DNA of 34,065 nt from Bacteroidia bacterium (lineage in GTDB: Bacteria > Bacteroidota > Bacteroidia > Flavobacteriales_D > Crocinitomicaceae). Within the stretch, counting starts at the first letter, position 1, and each line of letters starts with the position of its first letter. The stretch lies in contig JAUHXX010000005.1 in assembly GCA_030426825.1 (NCBI GenBank), positions 1 to 34,065 on the forward strand, given 5' to 3'. The notes beneath the pieces are model-generated. The model had not been told where the DNA came from. It worked only from the letters and a program-made list of their open reading frames with translations, and searched no databases. The position numbers were made by a program, and so were the translations under genes. Positions 10,515 through 26,895 of the stretch are shown piece after piece.

Positions 10515-10515
10515 A

Positions 10516-11247: not shown

Positions 11248-11251
11248 TAAT

Positions 11252-12478
11252 ATGAAAAGAGTTGTAATAACCGGAATGGGAATCTATTCCTGTATAGGTA
11301 AAAATCTTGAAGAAGTAAAACAATCTTTACAAGAAGGAAAAAGCGGAATTGTGCTTGACCAGAAAAGAAAAGAATTTGGATATAGATCTGGATTAACTGG
11401 TTTAATTGAAGAGCCAGATTTAAAAAAAGAGTTGCCCAGAAGAGAGCGTATTCAACTTTCTGAACAAGCTAAATATGCTTACGTTGCAACCAAAGAAGCT
11501 TTAGAAAATGCAGGCCTAACTGTTGATGATCTTGTAAAAGCTGAAGCAGGAATTTTGTACGGGAACGATTCATCAGCAAGAGCGGTAACCGAAGCTGTTG
11601 ATAAAATCAAAGAAAAAGGCGATACCACATTATTAGGTTCGGGTTCGATTTTTCAATCAATGAACTGTACGGTTACCATGAACCTTTCAACCATATTTAA
11701 ATTGAAAGGAATCAATTTTACGGTTAGTGCTGCGTGCGCATCAGGTTCTCACTCAATAGGAATTGGCTATTTGTTAATCAAAATGGGACTTCAAGACATG
11801 ATTATTTGTGGAGGCGCACAAGAGGTGAACGAATATGTTTTTGGAAGTTTTGATGGTTTAAGCGCTTTTTCTGTAAGAGAAGATGAGCCAACAAAAGCAG
11901 CACGACCTTTTGATAAAGACCGTGACGGTTTGGTGCCTAGCGGCGGTGGAGCAACAGTGATTATAGAATCTTACGAATCTGCAATCGCGCGTGGAGCGAC
12001 AATTTTGGCAGAAATCAAAGGCTACGGATTTTCGTCAAATGGCGATCATATTTCCAGCCCAAATAAAGAAGGGCAGTTGAAATCACTAAAAATGGCTTTG
12101 GATCAAGCTGAAATTGACCCGGGACAAATCGACTATATTAATGCGCATGCCACATCAACTCCGGTTGGGGATTCATTTGAGGCAAGAGCACTTTCAGAAG
12201 TCTTTGGTGAGCACAAAGTTCCAGTGAGCTCAACCAAGTCAATGACCGGTCATGAATGCTGGATGGCAGGGGCTTCCGAGATTGTTTATTCATTGATTAT
12301 GATGCAAAATAATTTCATTGCTCCCAACATTAACTTTGAAAATCCGGACGAAGATTCAAAGAATCTTAATATTATTGCAACTACTACGGAGAAAGAACTT
12401 AATTTTGTACTGTCCAACTCTTTTGGATTTGGTGGAACAAATTCGACCCTTATATTAGAAAAACTGAAAAATGAGTAA
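11252..12478 (+). CDS. Beta-ketoacyl-ACP synthase (KAS I/II type), first of three
   Basis: 408 residues with the full Cys-His-His triad: Cys162 in SAACASGS, His299 in NAHATSTP and His334 in MTGHECWMAG. The fold is complete, including the GFGGTNSTL C-terminal loop. It catalyses decarboxylative condensation of an acyl chain with malonyl-ACP. It is followed by an ACP gene that overlaps it by 8 bases. By position next to FabG and ACP it could be the counterpart of ApeR of proteobacterial aryl polyene clusters, but exact orthology needs a tree. The unusual ECWMAG after the second active-site His (housekeeping FabF has GAAG-like sequence there) suggests a pathway-specific enzyme. Confidence 0.88.
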   Translation: MKRVVITGMGIYSCIGKNLEEVKQSLQEGKSGIVLDQKRKEFGYRSGLTGLIEEPDLKKELPRRERIQLSEQAKYAYVATKEALENAGLTVDDLVKAEAGILYGNDSSARAVTEAVDKIKEKGDTTLLGSGSIFQSMNCTVTMNLSTIFKLKGINFTVSAACASGSHSIGIGYLLIKMGLQDMIICGGAQEVNEYVFGSFDGLSAFSVREDEPTKAARPFDKDRDGLVPSGGGATVIIESYESAIARGATILAEIKGYGFSSNGDHISSPNKEGQLKSLKMALDQAEIDPGQIDYINAHATSTPVGDSFEARALSEVFGEHKVPVSSTKSMTGHECWMAGASEIVYSLIMMQNNFIAPNINFENPDEDSKNLNIIATTTEKELNFVLSNSFGFGGTNSTLILEKLKNE

Positions 12479-12743
12479 AGAAGAGATCATAGAAAAAATC
12501 AACGAATTTTTAGTTGATGAGTTCGAAGTAGATGGAGACCTAATCAAGCCCGAAGCGAACCTTAGAGAGACTTTAGATTTAGATAGTCTTGATTATGTTG
12601 ATTTAGTTGTTGTTGTTGAAAGCAACTTTGGATTCAAGGTTGTCGCAGAAGATTTTATGGATATTCACACTTTTGAAGATTTCTATAATTACACTTTTAA
12701 CGCGGTTCAAAACAAAGACAAAGCTCCTACTGAAGAAGCTTAG
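12471..12743 (+). CDS. Acyl carrier protein, first of two
   Basis: 90 residues, acidic, with the phosphopantetheine attachment motif LDLDSLDYVDL; the modified Ser is residue 39. It carries growing chains on a pantetheine arm. It overlaps the ketosynthase upstream by 8 bases and lies 17 bases before the LpxL-like gene. The C-terminal tail after the four-helix core (NKDKAPTEEA) is probably disordered. Aryl polyene systems use two pathway-specific ACPs, and a second one is encoded at 16178. Confidence 0.92.
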   Translation: MSKEEIIEKINEFLVDEFEVDGDLIKPEANLRETLDLDSLDYVDLVVVVESNFGFKVVAEDFMDIHTFEDFYNYTFNAVQNKDKAPTEEA

Positions 12744-12760
12744 TTTATTCAATCGCCTCT

Positions 12761-13633
12761 ATGTCAAGCTGGAAAGGCAAAAGTAAAGGCACCCCTTTAG
12801 GATATAAAATTTTTATTCGCCTGATTCAAATTTTTGGAGTCAGAACGGCGTATTTTTTTCTACGTTTTCCCACCACGTATTATTACCTATTTGCTAAAGA
12901 AACGAAGCACCATTTGCGCACATTTTACGAGAAAGTTCCGACACTTGAAAAATCAGAAATCAATCGTACCATTCGAAGAAACTTCACCTATATCGGTGAG
13001 GCTATCGTTGATAAATTTGCCTTTTTAATCGGTAAACAAAATAAAATCACTTACACGAATGAAGGTGAAGAGCGTCTCAAAGCTTTTGCCGAAAAAGGCC
13101 AAGCGCTTATTCTCATTTCGGCTCATTTAGGGAATTGGGAAATTGCAGGAAATTTTCTCAAAAAAGTTGATGCGGAAGTTAATGTTGTTATGTTTGATGG
13201 TGAACGTGAAAAAATTAAAAAACTCATTCAAGATGAAGTAGGGAAAGTCCATTTCAACATCATTCCCATCAAAGAAGATTTATCGCATATCTTTAAAATA
13301 AATGCTGCAGTAAAAAGAGGTGAAATTATCTGCATTCACGGAGATCGCTTTTTAGAAGGAGCAAAAACCATTGAAGCGAAGCTATTTGGAAGAACCGTTG
13401 AACTTCCTTATGGTCCATTTCAAATTGCCTCAAAGTTAAAAGCACATTATAGTTTTATTTTTACGATAAAAAACGCTAAGTTCAACTATCATTTTACATC
13501 TACAGTGCCGGTCGTAAATCCATCTGCTGATGAAATCGCACAAGAATATGTAGATCAACTTGAGAAAAAAGTTACCGAAAACCCTGAACAGTGGTTTAAT
13601 TACCACCCATTTTTTAAAGAAGATGCTAATTGA
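12761..13633 (+). CDS. LpxL/HtrB-like lipid acyltransferase
   Basis: 290 residues of the lipid A late-acyltransferase superfamily. The catalytic HX4E motif is His122 to Glu127 in SAHLGNWEIAG, and a second family signature, HGDR, ends at residue 196. The N-terminus (residues about 14-45) is hydrophobic and amphipathic, consistent with peripheral inner-membrane attachment. Family members move an acyl chain from ACP to a membrane lipid. With the ACP immediately upstream, it probably transfers the finished or partial aryl polyene chain, or a fatty acyl chain, to a membrane-bound acceptor; this is inferred. The reading frame overlaps the next gene by 11 bases. Confidence 0.88.
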   Translation: MSSWKGKSKGTPLGYKIFIRLIQIFGVRTAYFFLRFPTTYYYLFAKETKHHLRTFYEKVPTLEKSEINRTIRRNFTYIGEAIVDKFAFLIGKQNKITYTNEGEERLKAFAEKGQALILISAHLGNWEIAGNFLKKVDAEVNVVMFDGEREKIKKLIQDEVGKVHFNIIPIKEDLSHIFKINAAVKRGEIICIHGDRFLEGAKTIEAKLFGRTVELPYGPFQIASKLKAHYSFIFTIKNAKFNYHFTSTVPVVNPSADEIAQEYVDQLEKKVTENPEQWFNYHPFFKEDAN

Positions 13634-14054
13634 AAAAAAAGACATTGAATCTCTAGTTCCTCAAAGAAGTCCAATTCTAATGATTGACGAACTTATTGAA
13701 CAAGACGAGCATAAAACCGTTACTCATTTCAAAGTACTTGAAAACAATTTATTCATAAGAAATGACGAAATGGAAGAAGCAGGAATTATAGAAAACATAG
13801 CACAATCAGCGGCAGCGAGAGCGGGATACTATTACCAACAGCAAAACGCGACTCCTCCTTTAGGGTTTATAGGAGCGGTTTCAAAAGTAAAAATTGCTAG
13901 ATATCCCAAGGTTGGTGAGCAACTGAGAACTTTAATTGAAATGAAAAGTGAAGTTTTCAATATCACCTTAATTAAAGGAAGTTCTTTCGTTGGAGACGAG
14001 CAAATTGCCGAATGTGAAATGAAAATTGTGATTGATGATCAAGCACAAGCCTAG
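13623..14054 (+). CDS. Hotdog dehydratase subunit, ApeP-like (has catalytic Glu, lacks catalytic His)
   Basis: 143 residues from the ATG at 13623; an upstream in-frame ATG at 13560 would add 21 residues lying entirely within the previous gene and is not needed by the fold. The start region VPQRSPILMIDELIEQ mirrors FabZ (PHRxPFLLxD). The GIIENIAQ segment aligns with the FabZ catalytic helix, so Glu57 matches the catalytic acid. The His normally 14 residues earlier in GHFP is absent (Leu43). Its likely partner is the ApeI-like protein at 25374, which has the His but not the Glu. Together they would dehydrate 3-hydroxyacyl-ACP intermediates to build the polyene. Overlaps its neighbours by 11 and 20 bases. 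Confidence 0.8.
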   Translation: MLIEKKDIESLVPQRSPILMIDELIEQDEHKTVTHFKVLENNLFIRNDEMEEAGIIENIAQSAAARAGYYYQQQNATPPLGFIGAVSKVKIARYPKVGEQLRTLIEMKSEVFNITLIKGSSFVGDEQIAECEMKIVIDDQAQA

Positions 14055-14478
14055 GTTCATACAAAACGAAATCGTTATTAATATTCGCTTCAGCGAAGTT
14101 GATGCAATGCGTATTGTATGGCATGGTAATTACTTGAAATTTTTTGAAGACGGAAGAGAGTCATTGGGTAATGAATATAACCTGGACTATCTAAAAATAG
14201 CGAATAATGGAATTCTTGTTCCGATAGTTAAATCTGAAATTGAACATTTAGGCATGGTTGAGTATGGCCACAAAGTGAAAGTTATCACCCGTCTTGTAGA
14301 TTCGCCTGCTGCAAAAATAATTCATGAATACGAAGTGGTAAACTTGAACACGGGCCAAGTTGCTGCACGAGGTAAAACCATTCAAGCCTTCATCACTCTA
14401 GATAGAAATTTGTTAATCACCATTCCAGAATTCTATGCCAAATGGAAAACTGAAACCAATTGGATAGAAATGGAATAA
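14035..14478 (+). CDS. Hotdog acyl thioesterase (YbgC/4-hydroxybenzoyl-CoA type)
   Basis: 147 residues from the ATG at 14035; a TTG one codon earlier is a less likely start. The N-terminal motif RFSEVDAMRIVWHGNYL, with Asp23 as the probable catalytic residue, followed by FFEDGRE, is diagnostic of the YbgC/4-HBT thioesterase clade. It would hydrolyse acyl-ACP or acyl-CoA thioesters. In the studied proteobacterial aryl polyene system, a thioesterase (ApeK) binds the pathway ACPs, and this gene is the natural counterpart, perhaps releasing or proofreading chains. It overlaps the upstream dehydratase gene by 20 bases and the next gene by one base (TAATG), so all three are coupled. Confidence 0.87.
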   Translation: MIKHKPRFIQNEIVINIRFSEVDAMRIVWHGNYLKFFEDGRESLGNEYNLDYLKIANNGILVPIVKSEIEHLGMVEYGHKVKVITRLVDSPAAKIIHEYEVVNLNTGQVAARGKTIQAFITLDRNLLITIPEFYAKWKTETNWIEME

Positions 14479-15569
14479 TGGTATATATCGGTGCCGAAAA
14501 TATTATTTCACCTTTAGGAGATTCTGCGGAGGCAAATTTCGAAGCTTTAGCCCAGTATAAAACTGGATTGAAATTAGTAGAGAATGCAGGCAATCGGAAT
14601 GAAGCCCTGTATATCTCTATCATGAATGATTTAGAAGGATTCGGGATTGTTAAACAAACAGTTAACAGCATTAAGGCAAGCCTACAATCAATTGAATTTG
14701 ATCAATTGAAATCTGAACGTACAATACTTATTTTAAGTACCACTAAAGGTGAAATCGAACTCTTACGCAACGAAGAAAGTGAAGCTGCAGCTTTGGGAAA
14801 ATTCAAGGATCAAATCGTCCAACATTTCCCTTGGATTTCGGAAACTCTTTTAATTTCGAACGCTTGCATTTCAGGAGTACTTGCCATAGCTACAGCTCAT
14901 GACTTAATTCATTCAGGTCAAGCCGATCACGTTATTGTTGCGGGAGCGGATATGCTTTCAGAGTTTACCCTTGCAGGATTTCAATCATTTTTTGCCATCA
15001 GTGATGAACCCTGTAAACCCTTTGATAAAAATCGTAAAGGAATTAATCTTGGTGAAGGAGCTGCAAGTCTTATTTTAAGTCGTTCAAAAAGTATTTTCAA
15101 ATCGCAATGTTTCAAATCTTTGGGTGGCTCATCAGCCAATGATGCCAACCACATTTCTGGACCTTCAAGAACTGGTGAAGGACTTTATCGAACCATAAAA
15201 AAAACATTGCTGCGTGCTAATATTAAACCTGAGGAAATTGATTTTCTCTCAGCTCATGGTACAGGTACTGCCTACAATGACGAGATGGAATCAATTGCAT
15301 TTGATAGAATTGGTTTAGTCAGCACACCTCTACACAGTTTAAAAGGCAGTTTGGGGCATACTTTTGGCGCAGCAGGCGTAATTGAAGCCGCCATTTGTCT
15401 GCAATCAATGCGTAACAATACCATGATTGCCTCGGCAGGATTTGAGAAGCAAGGAACCTCCAGAAGTATCAACGTACTGCAAAAAACGGAACAAAAAGAA
15501 CTCAACACCATTTTAAAAACAGCATCCGGATTTGGAGGCTGCAATGCATCCATTATCTTTCAAAAATGA
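14478..15569 (+). CDS. Beta-ketoacyl-ACP synthase, second of three
   Basis: 363 residues from the ATG at 14478, which overlaps the preceding stop as TAATG; a TTG at 14460 lies inside the thioesterase gene and is rejected. The triad is intact: Cys130 in SNACISG, His260 in SAHGTGT and His294 in GSLGHTFG. PFDKNRKGINLGEGA is the usual KAS segment. The protein is somewhat short for the family because the N-terminal half has shortened loops. It ends in an ATGA overlap with a truncated, Cys-less ketosynthase-like gene, the same arrangement as the third ketosynthase and its chain-length factor. A heterodimer with that neighbour is a reasonable inference. Confidence 0.86.
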   Translation: MVYIGAENIISPLGDSAEANFEALAQYKTGLKLVENAGNRNEALYISIMNDLEGFGIVKQTVNSIKASLQSIEFDQLKSERTILILSTTKGEIELLRNEESEAAALGKFKDQIVQHFPWISETLLISNACISGVLAIATAHDLIHSGQADHVIVAGADMLSEFTLAGFQSFFAISDEPCKPFDKNRKGINLGEGAASLILSRSKSIFKSQCFKSLGGSSANDANHISGPSRTGEGLYRTIKKTLLRANIKPEEIDFLSAHGTGTAYNDEMESIAFDRIGLVSTPLHSLKGSLGHTFGAAGVIEAAICLQSMRNNTMIASAGFEKQGTSRSINVLQKTEQKELNTILKTASGFGGCNASIIFQK

Positions 15570-16174
15570 ACCTGAAGATTCGGACATATTGCAACATTGA
15601 AAATGGAGTTGTTACTTTAAACGGTGAAAATTTAGATGGATTTGAATCGAATCAAAACGATCTATTAAAAGACTTATATGTTCATTTAAAAGTTGATTAT
15701 CCTAAATTTTATAAAATGGATAATCTATCTAAACTTGGCCTTCTAGGGGTTGAACTATTAAAAAGTGTAAGCACGTCCCTGGCTCAAATGGGAGAAGATG
15801 ATTTAGGGATCGTTCTGCAAACTAAATACGGATGTTTAGAAACTGACATCAATCATCAAGCACGAGTAGATGAAAAGTCACCAAGTCCTGCTATATTTGT
15901 TTATACCTTATCAAATATTGTGATTGGTGAAATATCAATTAAAAATAAATGGTTTGGTGAAAGCATATTATTCATTGAAGAACCGCGTAAATTGGATAAC
16001 TTAATTCGACATGCAACGGGACTTATTCTAAATAATAAAGCTAAAACCTGTTTAATTGGCTGTTTAGATTCTTACCAGAATCAACATAGTCTTAAAATGG
16101 CAATAATTGAAACCGGAAATGATGGACCAGCATTTAGTTTGGAAAATCTCGCCGATATTTTTGATAAAAAATAA
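15566..16174 (+). CDS. Truncated ketosynthase-like protein lacking the catalytic Cys
   Basis: 202 residues. Not a standard named family to my eye, but the order of motifs follows the N-terminal half of a ketosynthase. KMDNLSKLGLLGVELL resembles the helix R-R-M-x-x-x-x-R-L-A. GIVLQTKYGCLETD (81-94) resembles the G-[VI]-V-x-G-T-x-x-G strand. SPAIFVYTLSNIVIGEI (107-123) resembles the S-P-x-x-F-x-x-T-x-x-N-x-x-x-G segment before the active site. Where the nucleophile should follow, it reads ESILFIEEP with no Cys, and the C-terminal half with both active-site His residues is missing. It is therefore presumably non-catalytic and may pair with the ketosynthase encoded just upstream, as chain-length factors do. 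The ATG overlaps that gene by four bases; the second ACP gene follows after three. Confidence 0.7.
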   Translation: MNLKIRTYCNIENGVVTLNGENLDGFESNQNDLLKDLYVHLKVDYPKFYKMDNLSKLGLLGVELLKSVSTSLAQMGEDDLGIVLQTKYGCLETDINHQARVDEKSPSPAIFVYTLSNIVIGEISIKNKWFGESILFIEEPRKLDNLIRHATGLILNNKAKTCLIGCLDSYQNQHSLKMAIIETGNDGPAFSLENLADIFDKK

Positions 16175-16177
16175 GAA

Positions 16178-16432
16178 ATGGAAGAATTAGTAAGCAATTT
16201 AAAATCTCAAATTATTGAGTGTTTAAATCTTGAAGATGTAAAACCTGAAGATATCGGTACTAGCGATCCACTTTTCGGAGATGGATTAGGGCTTGATTCT
16301 ATTGACGCCTTAGAATTAATTGTATTGCTTGATCAAGAATATGGCATTGCAGTTGCTGATCCTGAAAAAGGTAAAGAAATTTTCGAGTCAGTTGAATCAT
16401 TAGCGAATTACATTACTGCTAACCGCGCATAA
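16178..16432 (+). CDS. Acyl carrier protein, second of two
   Basis: 84 residues, acidic. The attachment motif reads GLGLDSIDALELIVLL with the phosphopantetheinylated Ser at residue 41. Compared with the first ACP it has a longer loop before the Ser (PLFGDGLGL) and a shorter C-terminal tail. That fits the APE-type pattern of two ACPs with distinct duties, such as priming versus elongation, though which does what is unknown. It sits three bases after the truncated ketosynthase-like gene and three bases before the third ketosynthase gene. Confidence 0.92.
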   Translation: MEELVSNLKSQIIECLNLEDVKPEDIGTSDPLFGDGLGLDSIDALELIVLLDQEYGIAVADPEKGKEIFESVESLANYITANRA

Positions 16433-16435
16433 CCA

Positions 16436-17620
16436 ATGGGAATAGCAATCACTGGAATTGGTGTTATTTCATCCATTGGAAATTCGGTGGAAGAAAATTT
16501 GGCTTCATTGAAGTCAGCCAAAACAGGTATTGCTAAAATCCAACACTTCAAACATCTCAGAAAACCTTATTTAGGTGGACAGGTTTCGTTATCTGATCAA
16601 GAATTAAAGTCTGAACTCAATATTTCTTCGGACAGAATTGTCCCAAGGTCAACCCTTCTGTCTATGGTTGCTGCCAAAGAGGCCTGGGCCAACAACTCAG
16701 AACATAACCAACTACGAACTGGAATAATATCCGCTACATCAATTGGTGGGATGGAGCTTTCAGAACAATTTTATTTTGATCTAAAAGATGAAAATAACTG
16801 GAGTAAACTAGCACATTTAGCTGTTCATGACAACGGAGCAGGAACTGATATTCTTGCCGAATATTTAGGCATCAGCACCTATAAATTCACCATTTCTACG
16901 GCCTGTTCTTCGGGAGCGAATGCCGTGTTATTAGGAGCAAGATTAATTGAAGCAGATATATTGGATCGTGTTTTAGTTGGTGGTGGTGACGCGATTAGCA
17001 ATTTTACCCTTAATGGGTTTGATTCGCTTGGCATTTATGATACTGAATGGTGCAAGCCCTTTGACAACAATCGCAAAGGATTAAATTTAGGAGAAGGAGC
17101 CGGATTTGTTTTGTTAGAAAGCGAAAAGTCTTTAGCCATTTCAAATAACAAAGTATTAGCGAATGTCACTGGATGGGCCAATGCAAATGACTCTTACCAC
17201 CAAACAGCATCATCACCTGAAGGCACCGGTGCAACTTTAGCAGTAAGTCAAGCACTTAAAAAAGCGCAACTTTCGCCTGAACAAATAGATTATGTGAATG
17301 CGCATGGCACGGCAACGCCAAACAATGATTTATCAGAATCTACTGCTTTAACAAACGTATTTGGCGATAACATTCCACCTTTCAGTTCAACGAAAGCTTA
17401 TACAGGCCACACCCTGGCCGCATCAGGCGGAATAGAAGCCGTTTTTTCTGTATTAGCCATCCAAGAAAATATTTTATTGCCCAATCTGAATCATGCCGAA
17501 CCCATGAATGAAACAGGATATTTTCCTGTTACCGAAATACAATCAAAACCTATTTCGCATGTGCTATCAAATTCATTTGGATTTGGGGGCAACAGCACAT
17601 CTTTGGTATTTTCAAAATGA
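16436..17620 (+). CDS. Beta-ketoacyl-ACP synthase, third of three (ApeO-like candidate)
   Basis: 394 residues with a complete triad: Cys157 in STACSSGA, His290 in NAHGTATP and His325 in YTGHTLAASGG. The C-terminus has the usual SNSFGFGGNS loop. The gene ends in an ATGA-type overlap (17617-17620) with a protein carrying a degenerate, Cys-less KS domain. A KS gene fused in translation to its chain-length factor is the signature of type II polyketide systems, and in the APE pathway ApeO:ApeC form such a heterodimer. It is therefore the best candidate for the iterative polyene-extending ketosynthase. The start ATG lies right before the family's usual ITGIG strand. Confidence 0.9.
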   Translation: MGIAITGIGVISSIGNSVEENLASLKSAKTGIAKIQHFKHLRKPYLGGQVSLSDQELKSELNISSDRIVPRSTLLSMVAAKEAWANNSEHNQLRTGIISATSIGGMELSEQFYFDLKDENNWSKLAHLAVHDNGAGTDILAEYLGISTYKFTISTACSSGANAVLLGARLIEADILDRVLVGGGDAISNFTLNGFDSLGIYDTEWCKPFDNNRKGLNLGEGAGFVLLESEKSLAISNNKVLANVTGWANANDSYHQTASSPEGTGATLAVSQALKKAQLSPEQIDYVNAHGTATPNNDLSESTALTNVFGDNIPPFSSTKAYTGHTLAASGGIEAVFSVLAIQENILLPNLNHAEPMNETGYFPVTEIQSKPISHVLSNSFGFGGNSTSLVFSK

Positions 17621-18528
17621 AAGCATACATTCACTCATATCGCACCATTTCACGCTTAGATTCATTTGAAAATGGGATTTTGAATTCGGTTAATGATGTC
17701 TCTGAATCCACTATTCATCCAGATTATAAGCAAATCATTTCAGCTGGATTAATCAGAAGAATGAATCCTTTAATAAGAATGGGAGTTGGTGCAGCCATCA
17801 AAGTAAAAGGTGAGCTTCCGATTGAGGGCATAATTGTTGGAACCGGTTTAGGATTATTAGAAAACACTGAAAAGTTCCTTTCACAATTCATTCAAAACAA
17901 AGAAGGAATGCTCTCACCTACTTCATTTATTCAATCTACGCATAACACCATTGCGGGTCAAATTGGTTTGATTTTGAAGGATAACTGTTACAACAGTACC
18001 TATACACAAAGAGGGCAATCTTTTGAAAATGCTTTGATTGATGCCGTTGTGCTTTGTGCAGAAACAACAGGAAATATATTGGTTGGAGGATTAGATGAGA
18101 AAATCCCGTTATTAACTGAATTGGCGGCAAAAACAGGAATTGAGGCATCAAATTTATCTGAAGGCGCTAGTTTCTTTATTGTGAATCAAGACCAATCAAA
18201 TGCTAAGGCTGAGATTAAAGCGTGTAAAACCTTACGATCTGAAAATTTAGAAGAAGAAATCAAGAACTTTTTATCCCAAGAACAACTGAACCGACCTGAA
18301 CTTATTTTAACAGGTAACTCTTTTCTAGGCGAGTCTCCATTGAATCTTAATATTGAGGGCATTGATTACCAAAGTTATTCAGACTTATCAGGAGCCTATA
18401 TGACCAATTCAGCTTTTGGGCTGCAGATGGCAACGGAGCTCATTGAGAGCAACAAGGCTCAATCTGTTTTGATTGTCAATAATTTCATGAATAAAGATTT
18501 TGGATTGACCTACATTCAACAGGTATGA
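17617..18528 (+). CDS. Chain-length-factor-like degenerate ketosynthase (ApeC-like)
   Basis: 303 residues. The segment LIRRMNPLIRMGVGAA (45-60) and the PIEGIIVGTGLGLLENTE strand match the N-terminal ketosynthase-like domain used in chain-length factors (Ketoacyl-synt_2 type). Where active enzymes have a Cys, the aligned stretch is TQRGQSFENAL: the nucleophile is lost, with Gln134 at or next to that position. Replacement by Gln is a known feature of KS-beta subunits of aromatic polyketide synthases. The active-site His motifs are also absent. Its gene overlaps both neighbours by four bases. It probably forms a heterodimer with the ketosynthase upstream and limits chain length. Confidence 0.82.
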   Translation: MKAYIHSYRTISRLDSFENGILNSVNDVSESTIHPDYKQIISAGLIRRMNPLIRMGVGAAIKVKGELPIEGIIVGTGLGLLENTEKFLSQFIQNKEGMLSPTSFIQSTHNTIAGQIGLILKDNCYNSTYTQRGQSFENALIDAVVLCAETTGNILVGGLDEKIPLLTELAAKTGIEASNLSEGASFFIVNQDQSNAKAEIKACKTLRSENLEEEIKNFLSQEQLNRPELILTGNSFLGESPLNLNIEGIDYQSYSDLSGAYMTNSAFGLQMATELIESNKAQSVLIVNNFMNKDFGLTYIQQV

Positions 18529-19277
18529 AACACAAAATTGCCATCTTCGTTTTGCTAAGTGGCATAGTTTCAACGCTATTTCTCATTGAGGAACTTGCGC
18601 TTTCAATTACCATAATTACAATTCTTACAATCCTCTTTTTAGCTGTTCTGGCCATTGGAGTAACCACCATTAAATGGAATTATTTTATCAAATCAGTCAA
18701 TCGGGTAAAGCCTGGTAAAATCTGTTTCACATTTGATGATGGCCCATCAGAAAACACATTGAAAATTTTAGACATTTTAGACAAACATCAAGTGAAAGCC
18801 ACATTTTTCGTAATCGGAGAAAAATGCATAAAACACCCCGAAATCATCCAAAAAATGATGAAATCAGGTCATTTTATCGGAAATCATTCATTTTCTCACC
18901 AAAATAACATTGGTTGGTCTTCTACAAAATCAGTCATTCAAGAAATTGAAAAATGTAATTTAGCGATTGAAAATACGGCAGGATACAAAACCAATTTATA
19001 CCGTCCTCCCTTTGGTGTAACTAACCCGAATATTGCTCGTGCCATTTTAAGTACTAACATGCTCAGTGTTGGCTGGACCATTCGAACATTTGACACGCAA
19101 ATTGCAGATCCTCAAAAATTGATATCCAAAGTAAAACCACGTCTTAATAATAAAGGACATATTGTTTTGATGCACGATACTTGCGAGCAAAGTGTGTTAG
19201 CTCTTGATGCATTTATTCAGCATTGCAAAGAGACTGGCCTGGAAATTGTAAACTTAAATCCGGCAGAAATACCATAA
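18525..19277 (+). CDS. Membrane-anchored polysaccharide deacetylase (NodB domain)
   Basis: 250 residues. Two N-terminal hydrophobic segments (about 5-22 and 26-48) anchor a NodB-type catalytic domain. Its motifs are FDDGP (70-74, catalytic base and metal Asp), HSFSH (121-125, metal His pair), RPPFG (160-164) and LMHDT (215-219, catalytic His217). The family removes acetyl groups from carbohydrates or related N-acyl substrates in a metal-dependent way, usually outside the cytoplasm. Its substrate in a pigment locus is unknown; glycolipid-linked intermediates made with the GT2 protein at 25705 are one possibility. It starts within the ATGA overlap with the chain-length-factor gene, so it belongs to the operon. 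Confidence 0.88.
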   Translation: MKHKIAIFVLLSGIVSTLFLIEELALSITIITILTILFLAVLAIGVTTIKWNYFIKSVNRVKPGKICFTFDDGPSENTLKILDILDKHQVKATFFVIGEKCIKHPEIIQKMMKSGHFIGNHSFSHQNNIGWSSTKSVIQEIEKCNLAIENTAGYKTNLYRPPFGVTNPNIARAILSTNMLSVGWTIRTFDTQIADPQKLISKVKPRLNNKGHIVLMHDTCEQSVLALDAFIQHCKETGLEIVNLNPAEIP

Positions 19278-19288
19278 TTGATTATTAA

Positions 19289-19900
19289 ATGAAAAGTCTA
19301 TTGTTTATCAGCTTATTACTCATGGGAGTCCAATCTGAAACACCCATGAAAGACGAGGCCGCATTCATAAAGAAATTTGAAGAAATTTCAGAAGCAACTA
19401 CCAGCATCCAATGTGATTTTGAGCAAAAAAAGCATTTATCATTCTCTAAAGAACCTTTAATCACCAAGGGGTCTATGCTTTACGAAAAAGGAAACATGCG
19501 TTGGGAACAAGTTTCGCCTAAACCCTATTTAATGATCATTACTGATGATGTTTTAAAAATAAAGGAGAACGGAGAAATCACCGAACACGGTTTAGAAGAG
19601 AATAAATACATGAAGGGTTTGAAAGAAATAATGGTGGGCTCAATGACAGGAACACTCCTAAATTCAGATCATTTTAACACGAGCTTTTTTGAGAATCCTG
19701 CATTGTGGATCGTCAAATTAACACCAAAAAAAGCCCGTTTAAGAAAAATGTTTTCTGAAGTGATCATGAATTTTAATAAAGAAACATACCGGATGGACAA
19801 TGTCGTTTTGCGAGAAGAAAATGGTGATTACACGGTGATCAACTTTATTAATCCGGTGTTCAATGAAACCATTTCTGCTGCTAAGTTTGAGATGAAGTAA
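19289..19900 (+). CDS. LolA-like periplasmic lipoprotein carrier
   Basis: 203 residues with a short signal peptide (about residues 1-16). The body follows the LolA fold order: an N-terminal helix, then FEQKKHLSF, a strand pair with KGSMLYEKGNMRWEQVSPKPYLMI (the R-W strand typical of LolA), and a C-terminal sheet. LolA shuttles lipid-modified cargo across the periplasm. APE/flexirubin loci usually encode a dedicated LolA-like protein, thought to carry the pigment or its lipid conjugate to the outer membrane. It is the last gene of the compact block, 11 bases after the deacetylase gene. The next gene has its own promoter-like box. Confidence 0.85.
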   Translation: MKSLLFISLLLMGVQSETPMKDEAAFIKKFEEISEATTSIQCDFEQKKHLSFSKEPLITKGSMLYEKGNMRWEQVSPKPYLMIITDDVLKIKENGEITEHGLEENKYMKGLKEIMVGSMTGTLLNSDHFNTSFFENPALWIVKLTPKKARLRKMFSEVIMNFNKETYRMDNVVLREENGDYTVINFINPVFNETISAAKFEMK

Positions 19901-19908
19901 TATCTTTG
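19901..19908 (+). promoter_or_regulatory. Putative -7 box TATCTTTG before the first paralogue
   Basis: TATCTTTG begins at the base after the LolA-like stop codon and is an exact TAnnTTTG match, 21 bases before the ATG at 19930. No -33 element at normal spacing is obvious. It would separate expression of the paralogue from the biosynthetic operon. Confidence 0.45.
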
Positions 19909-19929
19909 CTCCTAATTTAAACCCAAATT

Positions 19930-21483
19930 ATGAAATTGTTACTTTGTCTCATAACATCCTTCTTTTTTACAATAACCCATTCCCAAGAACCCTATCCAAA
20001 TAAAACCTATACCATTAAATACACAGATATAAATGAATTAAATAAAACTGAAATCCTTCAGTGTTTTAAAGTAGAGTCGCATTATATCTTAATTACAAAA
20101 CGTGCTATTGTAGGACCAGGAGGATGGTTTTATTCTGTCGAAAAGTACGACCGAGCTTTTAATCCAATTTATAGATATAACATATCCGATTTCGCAAACA
20201 AAAAGTCCCTAGCAATAGATAATCATGTCATTTTAGGAAAAAAAATGATGTTGGTTTTTGCACAATTAATAGGAGAAGAAAAAGATGAACAATTAGTTTA
20301 TACTTTTTTTGACTTTCAAACGGGCGAAATGAGTCAAACTTTTCCTTTTAAAGATAGTTTTAAACCCTCAAATTATCTCCTAAAAAAATCACCAGACGAG
20401 AATATTCTGATGATTGTTCATTGGGAATTGTTAAAAGAAGAAAACAAAATAAATGCTAACTTTTTAATTGTTGATCAAAATTTTGAAGAGATTATACAAT
20501 ACCCAAACTATAAACTTGAGCTAGACGGTGAATTAGATAGGATTAGTAATTTTGAAATTGATAATGAAGCAAGAATTTATTGGTTAAAAATTGCTTGTTC
20601 AGCAAAAAATTTCCAAGAGTATCTCACAGAATACCCTAAAGAAATTAAACAAACTGTAGAAATAAATCAACTCGAATACAGCATCTTAACCACCAAGAAC
20701 ATTGACATTACTGATAAGCAAATAACAAACATTGGGTTAAAAATCAAAGATAATAATGAGGTTTATGCGGCAGGATATTACAGTGATTCAGAGTTAGATA
20801 CTATTAATGGTGTATTCGTCTATTCTGGGCTATTCGTTGAAAATGCCAAACCCAAATTAAATATTAATTCTTTTGATCAAAATTTAGTGTTGCCCCCTAA
20901 TCGAGAATTAACTAGTCAAGAAAACAGGAAATATAAGAACTTGAGCATAAACGATTTAAGTTTGGTTGATGTAATTCCATTCCAAAATGGTGATGTTACC
21001 TTGATTGGTGAGATGGAGAAGGTTGTACTCAACGCTGGAGGTTCAGTTTACTCATCATACTTCGGCGATTATATTATTTCAAATTTTCTTTCGAACGGAA
21101 GCATAACGCATACCAAATATTACAACTATCAAAGTATGTCTCCATCTTCAGCCTATTGCTTCCACTTTAATTTAAAGGATAAATTAACTTTTATTAAGGA
21201 CAAAAGCGCGCTAGATTTAATAGTTCCTGGGCAAAAAGAACTCTCTAAAAAAGACATGAAGGAACTTAAAAAAAGACATTCAATTTATCTCACCCAAATG
21301 AATAAAGATGGTTCCTTCATTGAATATAAACTTATAGATTACAACGACACAGACTTCTATAATGTCAAGAGAGAGTCCTGGTTAACAAAAACTTCTTTTT
21401 TCCTAGAGGAACAGCAAGAATTAATTCTATTCTTTGAATTCAAAGACAAACGACATGGCCTGGTATCAATAAGATTCAAATAA
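19930..21483 (+). CDS. Secreted protein of unknown function, paralogue 1 of 3
   Basis: 517 residues, family not recognised. Signal peptide about residues 1-18 (ending THSQ). A motif near the N-terminus, RAIVGPGGWFYSVEKYD (residues 58-74), recurs in the two following paralogues as G-x-G-x-W after a hydrophobic strand. Later landmarks are AAGYYSDSE, VTLIGEMEKV and YFGDYIISNFLSNG, the last two clearly shared with paralogue 3. Alternating short beta strands with Gly-Tyr and Asn-Gly turns suggest a beta-propeller-like extracellular domain, which is an inference. No lipobox, membrane segment or T9SS sorting tail is seen. It sits between the LolA-like gene and a convergent cupin gene, interrupting the pigment operon. 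Confidence 0.85.
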   Translation: MKLLLCLITSFFFTITHSQEPYPNKTYTIKYTDINELNKTEILQCFKVESHYILITKRAIVGPGGWFYSVEKYDRAFNPIYRYNISDFANKKSLAIDNHVILGKKMMLVFAQLIGEEKDEQLVYTFFDFQTGEMSQTFPFKDSFKPSNYLLKKSPDENILMIVHWELLKEENKINANFLIVDQNFEEIIQYPNYKLELDGELDRISNFEIDNEARIYWLKIACSAKNFQEYLTEYPKEIKQTVEINQLEYSILTTKNIDITDKQITNIGLKIKDNNEVYAAGYYSDSELDTINGVFVYSGLFVENAKPKLNINSFDQNLVLPPNRELTSQENRKYKNLSINDLSLVDVIPFQNGDVTLIGEMEKVVLNAGGSVYSSYFGDYIISNFLSNGSITHTKYYNYQSMSPSSAYCFHFNLKDKLTFIKDKSALDLIVPGQKELSKKDMKELKKRHSIYLTQMNKDGSFIEYKLIDYNDTDFYNVKRESWLTKTSFFLEEQQELILFFEFKDKRHGLVSIRFK

Positions 21484-21502
21484 TTTTCAGAGAAATTAAT
21501 TT

Positions 21503-21976
21503 TTACGTTTTGGTTAATCTAACAATTTCGTTTCTAAACTCTGGGTATTGCCGCAACAATTCTTCTCTTTCACACAAGTGAAAAGAATTGAAATCAAATC
21601 CCGGCGCTACGGCACAGCCAAACAAGCAATAATTCACCTTTTCAGATGCAATGGCTCCGAAAATAGTTCCTGTTGGAATGGCAATTTGTAATTGTTCCCC
21701 AGCTTCAATGTTCTTTCCAAATTTTATTTCTTCTAATCTTCCGTCAAGGTGAATCAAAAAAACATCAATGGCGTCACCGTTATGAAAATACCATATTTCA
21801 TCTCCCTCCAAATAATGGAATAGATTCTTTGTACCACCCTTCATTAAAATCGTAACACTGGTTAATAATGACCGATTCTCTATCTTTTCAGATGAACGAT
21901 AATTCTCTTTAAAATAGGTTCCTTCAGGATGAGGCTCCATGCCTAACTGTTCAATCCAATAGTTCACGTCTTTCAT
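21503..21976 (-). CDS. Cupin superfamily protein, DUF985/Cupin_5 family
   Basis: 157 residues. The start WIEQLGMEPHPEGTYF, the centre FHYLEGDEIWYFHNGDAI, and the end GCAVAPGFDFNSFHL with LLRQYPE are the three signature blocks of the DUF985 cupins. The fold is a single beta barrel that probably binds a metal or a small sugar-like ligand; the biochemical role of the family is not settled. It is the only minus-strand gene in the right arm, convergent with paralogue 1 and divergent from paralogue 2. It shares no feature with the pigment genes and may be an unrelated passenger in the island. No clear promoter box is visible in the 82 bases upstream. Confidence 0.85.
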   Translation of the reverse strand: MKDVNYWIEQLGMEPHPEGTYFKENYRSSEKIENRSLLTSVTILMKGGTKNLFHYLEGDEIWYFHNGDAIDVFLIHLDGRLEEIKFGKNIEAGEQLQIAIPTGTIFGAIASEKVNYCLFGCAVAPGFDFNSFHLCEREELLRQYPEFRNEIVRLTKT

Positions 21977-22058
21977 AAATTATGATTTAATCCATGAGGT
22001 CATTATTAATCCCTGTTAATGTATATTGTATCTTTAACCCTCAAGAATCCATAAACTT

Positions 22059-23633
22059 ATGAAAAATCTATTTTTCCTTTTCTTACCTTTTTATTTGACT
22101 TCGGCCTTTGCTCAAAACGGGGAAGCTAAACTTTCAAATCAAAATTTTGAAAATGCCTCAAGTACGGCAATCAACGAAATCATTAAATTAAATGATAACT
22201 ATTACGTTTTCAGTAAGAGTCCAATCAAAGGGCCAGGAGGTTGGAATTACTTCTTAGATGTATTGGATGCCGACCTCAAATTACTTAATCGACAAGATTT
22301 TAGTAATGAATTAAAAGGAACTGGAGGATATAAGCAAACAAGTGAATGCATTAAGGTAGGAGAAAATCTTGCTTTATTTAATTCTAAAAAACCTTCTGAC
22401 GAAAATCCGAATCATAGCCTAATAATGCATAAAATTGATCCTAGTAACGGATCTATAAAAGAAAAGATCGAATTAATTTCCTATAGCGGAAAACTTGAAT
22501 TAAACTTCTCATTTGACGTTTCAAATAACGGCGAATACCTTCTTATTACAACACAATATTTATCAAATGTAAAAGCTGACCCTGCAAGAGGTGTTAGCGC
22601 ATCTAAACGGATTGACAAAATAGATTATACCGTTCTAAATAAAGATTTTGAAGAAACCTGGTCTGAAGAAAACTTTATCATTGACAGTGATGATAAACCT
22701 TATGCTTATAAGGCAACTCGTTTAGGCAACAATGGTAAAATTTACGTTTATGGTATCGTCCAAACTGAACGCTCGCAATATGAAATTCGAAATAAAATTC
22801 CGCCTAACCCAGAGAATGGTGTTTGGCAAAGTCATATATCGGTAATAGGAAAAGACGAATCTCATTACCAAATTATTCCGGTACTTGAAAATAATATGAC
22901 AAAGTTTGAAGAGCAATTAATTATAACTGAAAACGGAGATCTTTTACTGGCTGGATATTCAAGAGATGATGACGGTGAAACCTATTACTATACTGCAACT
23001 TATTTTGTAAAATTAAACGCTCAAAATGGTGCATTTGAAGAAGAAATTTCGAAAAGATTTGATGCTGACTTTTTAAATCTCGGATGGACTGAAACGCCAA
23101 AAGAAAAAAAGAAGAGAGAAAAAAAACCTAAAACTGATTTGGGCGACATAACTTTTATTAAATCTTGTGCACTTAAAAACAATTCAGTTTCACTTGTTAG
23201 TGTGAGAAAAGATTACAATCAAGCGAAAGGGAACTACTATAGAGACTATATCATTTGCACCTTGTCATCTTCTGGTGAGATCGAGTTTTCGAAAATAAAA
23301 AAGGAAGTAAATAAGTTTGATATGGTGATTGCCAATATTGATAAAATTACATTGTTTACATCATCAACTAGATCGGAAATAGCTGAAATCGAAGATCCAA
23401 GCAAAAACAATAAAAATACGGTAATCGCGCAATACTACACAAATAAACCTCCTATTGAAATCTTAGATCTAAACAATTCCTTTGAAGGAAAAACATCTCC
23501 TGAAAGCTCAATTAAAATAGGGGTAAAAAGGTACTTTCAAAAATTTTATATTGAAGAAAATGATGCGACCGAGGTCTTCATGAAAATTTTAGTTCCTGGT
23601 AACAAATATGAACTGCTTAGAATTAGCTTGTAA
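22059..23633 (+). CDS. Secreted protein of unknown function, paralogue 2 of 3
   Basis: 524 residues, family not recognised but homologous in layout to its neighbours. Signal peptide about residues 1-19 (ending AFAQ). The shared N-terminal motif reads SPIKGPGGWNYFLDVLD (54-70). Other shared landmarks are GEYLLITTQY, GDLLLAGYSRDD (compare AAGYYSDSE in paralogue 1) and the terminal LLRISL (compare VSIRFK and LRIKM). A Lys-rich linker, PKEKKKREKKPK, near residue 350 is unique to this copy. It is the most divergent of the three and lacks the FGDYIISNF-type sequence, having YRDYIICTL instead. The protein should be periplasmic or outside the cell. A near-consensus -7 box, TATCTTTA, lies at 22029-22036. 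Confidence 0.84.
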   Translation: MKNLFFLFLPFYLTSAFAQNGEAKLSNQNFENASSTAINEIIKLNDNYYVFSKSPIKGPGGWNYFLDVLDADLKLLNRQDFSNELKGTGGYKQTSECIKVGENLALFNSKKPSDENPNHSLIMHKIDPSNGSIKEKIELISYSGKLELNFSFDVSNNGEYLLITTQYLSNVKADPARGVSASKRIDKIDYTVLNKDFEETWSEENFIIDSDDKPYAYKATRLGNNGKIYVYGIVQTERSQYEIRNKIPPNPENGVWQSHISVIGKDESHYQIIPVLENNMTKFEEQLIITENGDLLLAGYSRDDDGETYYYTATYFVKLNAQNGAFEEEISKRFDADFLNLGWTETPKEKKKREKKPKTDLGDITFIKSCALKNNSVSLVSVRKDYNQAKGNYYRDYIICTLSSSGEIEFSKIKKEVNKFDMVIANIDKITLFTSSTRSEIAEIEDPSKNNKNTVIAQYYTNKPPIEILDLNNSFEGKTSPESSIKIGVKRYFQKFYIEENDATEVFMKILVPGNKYELLRISL

Positions 23634-23648
23634 GAACTCTGCTTGAAA

Positions 23649-23681
23649 TCAATAATCATTAGCTTTGCTCAAGCTCAAATT
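23649..23681 (+). repeat. 33-bp promoter-containing direct repeat, copy 1
   Basis: This 33-bp stretch matches 25335-25367 at 31 of 33 positions (differences G/A and C/T). It contains the exact -7 box TAGCTTTG (23660-23667). The next ATG is about 95 bases away at 23763, much farther than in copy 2, so the leader is long or this copy is a relic. The two copies bracket paralogue 3, 1686 bp apart. Confidence 0.75.
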
Positions 23682-23762
23682 AAGACTATAAGTAATAATT
23701 TACATTGTAAATTTCTGCATCATAGAAAATTGGCTATTGATCCGTTTAATAATCTCTCATGA

Positions 23763-25319
23763 ATGAAATTTAAGTTCAGTTTCTCTATATTATTGCTTCT
23801 TATCAATCTAAATAGTATTGGTCAAACCTATTTGGATAATGCTAAGATTGATACTAAAATCTCCGAACATTCAGAGCTAAAAAATTCCCTTCTCATTGGT
23901 GCTTTTTTAGAAAATGACCAATACATTGTATTCAGAAAAGCACCCATCAGAGGAAAGGGTAGATGGCGCTACTACTTAGAAACAATAGATAACAATTTAA
24001 ATACGACCAAATTGTTATATCTATCAGGTTTAACTGAAATTATTGAAACCGAAAAGTTCGAATTTGAAGCTACAAGACTTATAGAAGATCACATTATTTC
24101 ATTCGTTAGCAAAAAAAATAAAAAGACGAAAAAAATTGAAACGCACTATATAATCTTGAACACGTTTTCTGGAAAAATTGAAAAAAGAAGTTTACTTCAT
24201 GAGTCAAAATCTAAAAAAGCCAAAGAAGGCTTCAACTATTGGTGTATTGATTCACCTGACCATTCGAAAATTCTTGTAGTTATTGAAGAAAAATTCAAAA
24301 ATGACAGCTCTGTTGCCAGTTTTAAAGTACATGATAAAGACATGCAACCACTTTCGGAATTTAATGAGATTGGATTTAAGTTAAACGAATTGGAATTAAT
24401 TGACTTTGATGTAAGAAACAATGGTGAAATCCTCTATCTACAGAATAGAATTCAAGATACAGTGCAGTCTTTAGAATTGGTGAGATTATTAAAAAATGAA
24501 AACAAATTGAACGAAATTAAACTTGATAATCACAATTTGATGGTAGCTAGGATAGTTCAGCATGAGAACAGAACTGTAGTGACTGGTCTATACTACAGAT
24601 CTAAAAGCAATGTTTTTGAAGGAACCTATCTGATTGACATTAGCAACCCAGATCTTGAAAAACCAGAAATAAAAACGCATATTTTCAATGGCATTTTTCT
24701 TCAACACGCCTTATATAATAGAAAGAAGTTTTTTCTAGAAGTACGGCAGCCAATTGAAGAACGAACAAAATCAGCTTTCCTAGTACTAGATCGAATTTTA
24801 AAGCATCAAGACGGATCTATCTCCGTGGTTGGAGAAATGCAGTGGTACAACTCTACTTATGGTTCTCGTGTCGGTATGACACCGGGATATTCGCATACAA
24901 TCCTTCATTATGGTGATTATTTAATTTCTCGTTTTTATCCTGACGGACGCGTGGTTGATTCGCACTATCCAAAAGATCTCATGTATAGCTACTCTTCAGC
25001 AATTTATAGCCATAACAATGATGTAATAATTTTTCATGAATCTAAAGTAAAGGTTCAAAATCCAGAACGGGTCACAAACCCTCAAGTTGATGTAAAAGAT
25101 AGCGTCACACAAAAAATTATTCAGGTTGCCAAAATTAGGGAAGACGGAAATGTCCATTCGGAAACCCTTCTTAACTATGATTCCGAACAATTTGAAAATA
25201 TCAAACCAAACAGAAAGCTTGGTTATCGGATCATTAAACCAAGAAATGAAACTGGTGTATTCTTAATGCCAATTGAGTATTACTCTGGAACTTCAGGAAT
25301 TTTGAGAATAAAAATGTAA
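23763..25319 (+). CDS. Secreted protein of unknown function, paralogue 3 of 3
   Basis: 518 residues, family not recognised. Signal peptide about residues 1-20 (ending SIGQ). The N-terminal motif is APIRGKGRWRYYLETID (60-76), so the first Gly and the Trp are kept while the middle differs. ISVVGEMQWY, HYGDYLISRFYPDG and the ending ILRIKM align with paralogue 1 (VTLIGEMEKV, YFGDYIISNFLSNG, VSIRFK), so these two are closer to each other than to paralogue 2. An insertion before the GDYLISRF segment (STYGSRVGMTPGYSHT) sets it apart. No lipobox or sorting tail is visible. An ATG at 23759 is out of frame and opens only a four-codon frame. The gene is flanked by the 33-bp direct repeats. Confidence 0.85.
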   Translation: MKFKFSFSILLLLINLNSIGQTYLDNAKIDTKISEHSELKNSLLIGAFLENDQYIVFRKAPIRGKGRWRYYLETIDNNLNTTKLLYLSGLTEIIETEKFEFEATRLIEDHIISFVSKKNKKTKKIETHYIILNTFSGKIEKRSLLHESKSKKAKEGFNYWCIDSPDHSKILVVIEEKFKNDSSVASFKVHDKDMQPLSEFNEIGFKLNELELIDFDVRNNGEILYLQNRIQDTVQSLELVRLLKNENKLNEIKLDNHNLMVARIVQHENRTVVTGLYYRSKSNVFEGTYLIDISNPDLEKPEIKTHIFNGIFLQHALYNRKKFFLEVRQPIEERTKSAFLVLDRILKHQDGSISVVGEMQWYNSTYGSRVGMTPGYSHTILHYGDYLISRFYPDGRVVDSHYPKDLMYSYSSAIYSHNNDVIIFHESKVKVQNPERVTNPQVDVKDSVTQKIIQVAKIREDGNVHSETLLNYDSEQFENIKPNRKLGYRIIKPRNETGVFLMPIEYYSGTSGILRIKM

Positions 25320-25334
25320 ATGTTATCTACACTT

Positions 25335-25367
25335 TCAATAATCATTAACTTTGCTTAAGCTCAAATT
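25335..25367 (+). repeat. 33-bp promoter-containing direct repeat, copy 2
   Basis: Second copy of the repeat at 23649-23681, 31 of 33 bases identical. Here the -7 box is TAACTTTG (25346-25353), 20 bases before the ATG of the ApeI-like gene at 25374, a normal leader. This copy is probably the working promoter of the ApeI-like and GT2 genes. Confidence 0.75.
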
Positions 25368-25373
25368 TATACA

Positions 25374-25724
25374 ATGGACGCATTTTACACGATTAACTCT
25401 AAGGATGTTTCAACTGAAACATGGCAATTCAATGTTTCACTCAACGAGAATCACCCAGTTTATAAAGGCCATTTCCCTCAAAAAGCAGTGGCTCCAGGAG
25501 TGATGCTTACACAGATGATAAAAAATTTAGTTGAAGGCGAAATGGGCCGTGAATTAAAGATGAGCTCAGCACGCAACATCAAATTTTTGAACATGATGTT
25601 GCCAGATTCTGCTTCAAATGTAGACATAGAAATCACTGTGAAAGAAGAAGACGAATTGGCGGTTAACGCTCAGGCCAAAATTCAAGAAGAGGTCTATTTT
25701 AAAATTGCCGCTCGCTTTGTCTAA
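25374..25724 (+). CDS. Hotdog dehydratase subunit, ApeI-like (has catalytic His, lacks catalytic Glu)
   Basis: 116 residues, short for FabZ but normal for the ApeI group. The signature HPVYKGHFPQKAVAPGVML (27-45) matches the FabA/FabZ GHFPxxPxxPGV motif, with His33 as the catalytic His. Fourteen residues on, where FabZ has Glu (FabA Asp), there is Gln47. The ApeP-like protein at 13623 shows the opposite pattern. In FabZ dimers the active site takes His from one chain and the acid from the other, so a heterodimer with one complete site is predicted; an ApeI:ApeP heterodimer has been described for the aryl polyene pathway. The gene has its own promoter repeat and overlaps the GT2 gene by up to 20 bases. 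Confidence 0.85.
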   Translation: MDAFYTINSKDVSTETWQFNVSLNENHPVYKGHFPQKAVAPGVMLTQMIKNLVEGEMGRELKMSSARNIKFLNMMLPDSASNVDIEITVKEEDELAVNAQAKIQEEVYFKIAARFV

Positions 25725-26895
25725 AGACTTAAAAACCCGATTTAAGGCGCACAAATGCTGCGTCATGATTCCGACTTACAACAACGAGAAAACCTTGGCT
25801 CGTGTTATTGAAGGGGTACTAAATTACTGTGACGATATCATAGTAATTAATGATGGCGCCACCGATAGCACACCTAAAATAATTGCTCAATATCGTGAGC
25901 AAGTGCATGTGTTTAATCATCAGGAGAATAAAGGTAAAGGAATGGCACTCCGCAACGGCTTTAAAACTGCCATTGATTTGGGTTTTGATTATGCCATAAC
26001 CATTGACTCAGACGGTCAACATTTTCCTGAAAACTTAGAAGATTTTTTAACGGAGAGCGAAAAACATCCAGAGGCTTTAATTTTAGGGGCAAGAAACATG
26101 GATCAAGAAGGCGTTCCGGGTAAAAGTTCATTTGGAAATAAGTTCTCCAATTTTTGGTTTTATGTTGAAACGGGTTTAAAAATGCCTGATACGCAAACGG
26201 GCTATCGCTTGTATCCACTAAAATCGATTAAACAAAAAAAATACTTCACTTCTAAGTTTGAATTTGAAATTGAAGTGATTGTGAAAATGGCATGGAAATT
26301 TGTGCCCATTCACTCCATTCCAATCAAAGTGTTATATGACCCTGATGAACGTGTTTCGCACTTCAGACCATTCAGAGACTTTACGAGAATTAGCATCTTA
26401 AACACTTATTTGGTAACGTTAACATTGATATGGTATTTGCATGTTCGGCTCATCAGAAAGGTCATTAAAAAAGGCTTATGGGCCAGTTTTAAAGAAGAGT
26501 TGAATAACAAAAATGAATCGAATATCAGAAAAGCCTCTGCGGTTGGTTTTGGCATTTTTATGGGGATCATCCCCATTTGGGGATTCCAAATGCTGGTGGC
26601 AGCGGCAATTGCAAAACTGCTACGCCTCAACACCATCATTACTTTGGTTTCATCAAATATCAGTATCCCACCAATGATCCCAATTCTCCTCTTTGCTAGT
26701 TACTGGACGGGATCCATCTTTATCAATGACAGCATTGCACTCAACTGGCATGCTGAATTCACCTTAAACGACATGTATTTGAACTTGAAACAATACCTGG
26801 TTGGCAGCTTCATTTTTGCAGCAATTGCAGGGTTCGTGATGTTCTTGGTGGCTTTTTTGATTTTAAAGGTCTTAAGAAAAGAACCAAAAGTCTAG
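25705..26895 (+). CDS. GT2 glycosyltransferase fused to a DUF2062 membrane domain
   Basis: 396 residues. Residues about 17-225 are a GT-A fold family 2 glycosyltransferase: VMIPTYNNEKT, VINDGATDST, then TIDSDGQHFPE with the metal/nucleotide DxD at 101-103, and DTQTGYRLYP. Residues about 255-390 are a DUF2062 domain with several membrane helices (FGIFMGIIPIWGFQM and a C-terminal helix near 365-388). This suggests a dolichyl-phosphate-type sugar transferase or a glycosyltransferase acting at the inner membrane on the pigment or its lipid acceptor; the acceptor is inferred. No ATG precedes the first strand: an ATG start at 25765 would remove part of it, so a TTG (25705, or 25717 eight bases before the upstream stop) is used. 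A terminator follows. Confidence 0.85.
   Translation: MPLALSKDLKTRFKAHKCCVMIPTYNNEKTLARVIEGVLNYCDDIIVINDGATDSTPKIIAQYREQVHVFNHQENKGKGMALRNGFKTAIDLGFDYAITIDSDGQHFPENLEDFLTESEKHPEALILGARNMDQEGVPGKSSFGNKFSNFWFYVETGLKMPDTQTGYRLYPLKSIKQKKYFTSKFEFEIEVIVKMAWKFVPIHSIPIKVLYDPDERVSHFRPFRDFTRISILNTYLVTLTLIWYLHVRLIRKVIKKGLWASFKEELNNKNESNIRKASAVGFGIFMGIIPIWGFQMLVAAAIAKLLRLNTIITLVSSNISIPPMIPILLFASYWTGSIFINDSIALNWHAEFTLNDMYLNLKQYLVGSFIFAAIAGFVMFLVAFLILKVLRKEPKV

Follow-up and report, generated by a model that had tools for sequence, protein, structure and literature searches.

Secreted proteins with a predicted beta-propeller fold that are co-inherited with flexirubin biosynthesis, and an island of three of them in a Crocinitomicaceae pigment cluster

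Three paralogous genes within a flexirubin cluster

Flexirubin-type pigment clusters encode accessory proteins besides the biosynthetic enzymes, and we examined one such cluster in a 34,065-nucleotide stretch of DNA (hereafter the window; contig JAUHXX010000005.1 of GenBank assembly GCA_030426825.1) from a Bacteroidia bacterium of the Crocinitomicaceae. Between its gene for LolA2, a flexirubin-specific LolA, and those for an ApeI-like dehydratase and a GT2 glycosyltransferase lies an island with three genes for secreted proteins (Table 1). An initial annotation, made from the letters of the window, had described the island as three tandem paralogues inside the pigment operon, and had offered either a pigment-linked surface function or an unrelated passenger family. 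Using comparative genomics we find that the branch of proteins to which all three belong is inherited together with flexirubin biosynthesis, the link being mainly one of co-inheritance. This favors the first of these options, although most members of the branch are encoded away from the cluster.

The lengths of the three proteins and the positions of their G-x-G-x-W motif are exactly as annotated, as are their C-terminal ends (SIRFK, LRISL and LRIKM) and the GEM and GDYxIS segments common to paralogues 1 and 3; each N-terminus, judged by eye, is signal-peptide-like. BLASTP detects homology among all three far beyond chance (1 versus 3, E=1e-13 over 476 residues; 2 versus 3, 5e-8; 1 versus 2, 0.002), with pairwise identities of about 20% over the whole length. 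The expectation that the island parts otherwise adjacent genes also holds: in the two nearest relatives (G010 and G047) the site is empty, with 32 and 21 bp respectively between LolA2 and ApeI, and the second of these also carries the same genes beyond GT2. Because the order LolA2-ApeI-GT2 is unbroken in both, the simplest reading is that the island was inserted in the window's lineage; separate losses are less likely. The guanine-plus-cytosine (GC) content of the island is 30-34% as against 35-38% in the flanking DNA.

The tandem arrangement applies to genes 2 and 3; an antisense cupin gene parts genes 1 and 2, for which reason we rejected a simple tandem array. A homologue of this cupin (46% identity) occurs in the congener G003, and G010 and G047 yielded none; at another locus (L039) a DUF985-type cupin adjoins a member of the wider family described below. 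Likewise, the island is inside the operon by position, but probably not in its transcription: the antisense gene, together with boxes of the pattern TAnCTTTG before genes 1 and 3 and ApeI, argues against one simple tandem operon. Ten such sites occur in the window, six of them in the 6.6% of it that is intergenic (P=1.4e-5, for a pattern picked post hoc); among these, the box stands 35 bp upstream of FlxA, 21 bp of gene 1, 95 bp of gene 3 and 20 bp of ApeI. The looser motif TAnnTTTG shows no enrichment in the window (44 observed, 46.6 expected). A TAnCTTTG box is held by each copy of a 41-bp direct repeat that follows genes 2 and 3. The copies are 88% identical (E=2.7e-6), form the sole such pair found in the genome, and are far better conserved than the two genes. 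The repeat fits a duplication of the gene along with its downstream spacer, yet the genes have diverged far more than the repeat.

Upstream of the island lies the flexirubin core, in which FlxA (791 bits) and FlxB (379 bits) both exceed their NCBIfam cut-offs and a dehydratase-like gene occupies positions 13560-14054. DarB of the source genome sits on another contig (G000:C101:26554-27687), and LolB2_flexi (NF053540) was not found in that genome.

Table 1. The island, its promoter-like boxes and repeats, and the neighboring genes in the window
Feature	Position	Strand	Remarks
Flexirubin core: FlxA tyrosine ammonia-lyase, FlxB reductase, ketosynthases, dehydratases, LpxL-like acyltransferase, acyl carrier protein	8991..18528	+	Upstream of island
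Polysaccharide-deacetylase-family protein of the flexirubin cluster	18525..19277	+	Pfam PF01522, 6.6e-34; precedes LolA2 in most relatives
LolA2, flexirubin-specific LolA	19289..19900	+	NCBIfam NF053544 LolA2_flexi, 167.7 bits (cut-off 125)
TATCTTTG, Bacteroidota-type -7 box	19901..19908	+	Immediately after LolA2 stop, 21 bp before gene 1
Island gene 1, secreted paralogue (beta-propeller fold predicted)	19930..21483	+	517 aa; GPGGW, residues 62-66; clade A
DUF985 cupin gene	21503..21976	-	Antisense, between paralogues 1 and 2; Pfam PF06172, 2e-38
Island gene 2, paralogue	22059..23633	+	524 aa; GPGGW, residues 58-62; clade A
41-bp direct repeat, copy 1	23649..23689	+	Contains TAGCTTTG; 16 bp past gene 2 stop
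Island gene 3, paralogue	23763..25319	+	518 aa; GKGRW, residues 64-68; clade A
41-bp direct repeat, copy 2	25335..25375	+	Contains TAACTTTG; 16 bp past gene 3 stop, extends to ApeI start
ApeI/FabA-like dehydratase	25374..25724	+	Pfam FabA, 5.5e-5; adjoins LolA2 in relatives
GT2-DUF2062 glycosyltransferase of the cluster	25705..26895	+	Pfam, 2.5e-25 and 7.2e-18
Choice-of-anchor B family protein (TIGR04312)	28026-29366	-	Beside cluster; same position in Crocinitomix (L124)

A family of secreted proteins and its flexirubin-linked branch

With the three island proteins as queries, neither Pfam nor NCBIfam (the LolB2_flexi model NF053540 included) gave a match up to E=1, neither PHROGs nor PADLOC gave one up to E=0.01, and PDB held no relative by sequence; Pfam gave nothing convincing for any of 24 relatives. 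With no relative among viral contigs (one scan) and no PHROGs or PADLOC match, we rejected the notion of a phage or defence passenger. The C-terminal sorting domain of the type IX secretion system was also not matched in Pfam or NCBIfam up to E=1, and the C-terminus of a modelled relative is a propeller strand. A lipobox cysteine was not seen, the signal sequences, by sequence, ending ahead of a glutamine; this residue near the mature N-terminus is the sole invariant column among 16 relatives, and the best conserved columns are mostly glycine and aromatic. The three genes are rapidly diverging paralogues from a family of secreted proteins that is undescribed and has no model in these databases. 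Three copies of the wider family were found in the source genome. It occurs in 189 of 240 genomes of the same taxonomic family (E<=1e-12), at unrelated loci and with or without flexirubin, and is common in Flavobacteriales without linkage to pigment. Homologues lacking a pigment link, which the initial annotation would have taken as counting against it, are plentiful in the wider family; the window genes' own branch was found essentially only in genomes positive for the flexirubin LolA2.

To define this branch we used the same 240 genomes, of which 46 are positive and 194 negative for NF053544 (LolA2_flexi), presence being scored by profile matches and some of the genomes being incomplete. The highest-scoring relatives of the window genes are nearly all from genomes with the flexirubin LolA2, and in a first tree two clades stood out: clade A, with 19 of its 20 rows from positive genomes, and clade B, with all five. 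The clade limits were drawn after this pattern had been seen, and a search of the 240 genomes with a clade-B profile, defined on the five proteins, then served as a fresh test. It recovered 26 genomes at E<=1e-115, all of them positive and 21 of them additional to the original set, with the next genome, a negative one, at 8e-63. Clade A occurs in 13 genomes of the taxonomic family, every one positive, and in G319, which belongs to another family of the order and is positive too. Taken together, clades A and B are present in 33/46 positive and 0/194 negative genomes. A second tree with more clade-B rows, built by a quick method and with some rows left out, separated A+B from the other 31 rows with a support of 98 in the Shimodaira-Hasegawa-like approximate likelihood-ratio test (SH-aLRT); in it all three window genes fall in clade A (SH-aLRT 100), long branches leaving the order inside this clade unsure.

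Stratified by genus, this pattern has a probability of about 1e-18 (236 genomes assigned to genera, a few of them by handle order). Since genomes within one genus are not independent, the safer count is that of genera: all eight that hold positives, negatives and at least one A/B member are concordant (sign test, 0.004). DarB scores above its cut-off in 43 of the 46 positive genomes, the source genome included, and by gene content these would make the full flexirubin. Both clades are also present in Crocinitomix catalasitica ATCC 23190, a type strain in culture. The 98% complete genome G010 (L077) has a flexirubin cluster and both clades with no DarB hit, and may make just the aryl polyene.

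Members of the branch lie inside the flexirubin cluster in two separate lineages: clade A in the window, and clade B beside FlxJ and FlxA in G160 and G166. A look for the family near flexirubin clusters elsewhere, as originally advised, turned up further cases, with most members nevertheless encoded at other loci. This linkage is weak by itself and adds to the co-distribution. The family is not a cluster component everywhere, an idea we rejected because the first 12 flexirubin loci inspected contained no member. The branch also has tandem duplicates in G012 (L197, 8680-12064) and G160 (L116, 8321-11551). Another array of three tandem genes, of the same clade as the island's, lies in Crocinitomix catalasitica at a distance from the flexirubin cluster of that species (L035, 8114-13099; also L162); its intergenic regions also resemble one another.

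Predicted fold

The protein of gene 1 folded alone gave a predicted local distance difference test score (pLDDT) of 34, and the fold prediction for the island comes from the model of a relative. This clade-A protein of locus L159, 22-27% identical to the window genes, was modelled from a 12-row alignment with a pLDDT of 83.7, a predicted template-modelling score (pTM) of 0.80 and 32 strands, which most likely form eight four-stranded blades, that is, a single eight-bladed beta-propeller. The model puts GPGGW at the turn joining two of the early strands. Structural matches obtained with Foldseek and VIA-align are mostly beta-propellers (best Z 13-15, values that indicate fold class rather than function), the best bacterial one being BamB (VIA Z about 14 over about 310 residues). 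The Foldseek matches include propeller lyases, peptidases and a carotenoid oxygenase at TM-scores of at most 0.35 of the query and 7-12% identity; given these low values, we rejected the lyase, peptidase and NinaB matches as pointers to function and retained them as fold class.

Proposed role and its alternatives

Flexirubin-type loci encode LolA2 and LolB2, for which a role in transport has been proposed (PMC11885536); flexirubin has been reported in the outer membrane, with its export mechanism called unknown (PMC3992019). These papers, of 2025 and 2014, describe the mechanism of export as unknown or untested. The export signals, the predicted fold and the co-inheritance of the A/B branch together suggest that it may take part, downstream of LolA2, in the placement or organisation of the pigment. 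LolA2 would receive the pigment or a precursor, and the propellers, as extracytoplasmic proteins of the periplasm or the outer membrane, would act one step later: at the outer membrane they would dock, hold or organise either the pigment or a protein that handles it. On this view three copies came to lie, in the source genome, between LolA2 and the ApeI-like gene, the rest of the cluster being conserved. We tentatively favor this explanation as a whole, namely that these are pigment-co-inherited secreted propellers which handle, dock or organise flexirubin after LolA2, and consider that it could well be correct while stopping short of calling it probable. A more specific version, in which dedicated exported propellers take flexirubin from LolA2 and place or pack it in the outer membrane, thereby filling in this lineage the role that LolB2 is proposed to have in Flavobacterium, with their divergence and duplication tracking the pigment structures of each species, is speculative and on present evidence unlikely. 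The literature searched contained no paper describing a flexirubin-linked beta-propeller.

Several observations weigh against a role in pigment placement. Most A/B members are neither in nor near a flexirubin cluster. Clades A and B are both missing from 13 of the 46 positive genomes, which means that these proteins are not needed for making flexirubin. G291, a negative genome that is 87% complete, joined clade A in the first tree on a long, weakly placed branch, and was among the rows omitted from the second. Nothing that would mark pigment binding was identified. A lifestyle favoring both traits could, moreover, yield the same co-distribution. The last point is the substance of the main rival explanation, in which the proteins are ecological passengers with a function unrelated to pigment, such as surface adhesion, flexirubin is favored by the same lifestyle, and the place in the cluster is due to chance. 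The scatter of A/B members over unrelated loci and the pigment-independence of the wider family speak for it, as do features of the island itself: its lower GC content, its own promoter-like boxes and the unrelated antisense cupin it includes. Against it stand the lack of A or B in all 194 negative genomes, a pattern that extends to genera holding both kinds, and a cluster member in each of two separate lineages; we regard it as rather unlikely, if a serious contender.

Another possibility is that the propellers replace LolB2 as the outer-membrane acceptor of LolA2's load. The source genome lacks LolB2_flexi, as do 40 of the 46 positives, and clade B is found in 26 of these 40 as against none of the six with LolB2 (Fisher P=0.004); most flexirubin clusters in the taxonomic family thus do without the proposed partner of LolA2. 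However, the LolB2-positive genomes are few and related, A and B together show no association (P=0.33), the predicted fold differs from LolB's, and a lipid anchor is not seen. As clade A coexists with LolB2 in G028, G043 and G023, we rejected plain replacement and hold any form of it to be improbable. Still less credit is due to two other proposals, about equally doubtful. Several propeller folds are enzymes, and the enzymes among the Foldseek matches might suggest an envelope enzyme acting on the pigment or a surface glycan; these matches, as noted, mark a fold class only, and no conserved catalytic set is seen among the mostly glycine and aromatic conserved columns. The rank of BamB among the matches, and the fact that periplasmic propellers often serve as binding platforms, would be consistent with a role in signalling or stress sensing, the propeller monitoring the outer membrane of pigment-bearing cells; against this, no linked sensor kinase or sigma factor was seen among the neighbors scanned, most of them unannotated.

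The A/B branch of this family, present in about 70% of the positive genomes sampled from its taxonomic family and in no negative one, makes a shortlist of candidates for the placement step of flexirubin. It also shows that a cluster-linked component may lie mostly outside the cluster, where cluster-mining tools do not look.

Comparison with known systems

One close counterpart is the wider unnamed Bacteroidota family of secreted proteins of about 530 residues (YYxDI...GxIxWxxKxxKxQ type; alignment A2), with which the branch shares its length, glycine pattern and whole-length homology. It differs in lacking GPGGW, which marks one clade rather than the wider family, and in its indifference to flexirubin, whereas the window's branch is found only with the pigment. 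The TIGR04312 protein encoded beside the cluster is also secreted and of the same size class, but belongs to a different, named family. BamB, the outer-membrane propeller of the BAM (beta-barrel assembly machinery) complex, is likewise a single propeller exported to the periplasm, as is predicted for the island proteins. BamB is a lipoprotein with pyrroloquinoline quinone (PQQ)-like repeats that binds BamA; the island proteins have no lipobox and no Pfam match, and are 9-12% identical to it. Like LolA2 and LolB2 (NF053544 and NF053540; Fjoh_1085 and Fjoh_1084), finally, they would be exported accessory proteins tied to flexirubin producers, and the island directly follows LolA2; unlike them, they are predicted beta-propellers of about 520 residues rather than small half-barrels of 200, and are mostly encoded outside the cluster.

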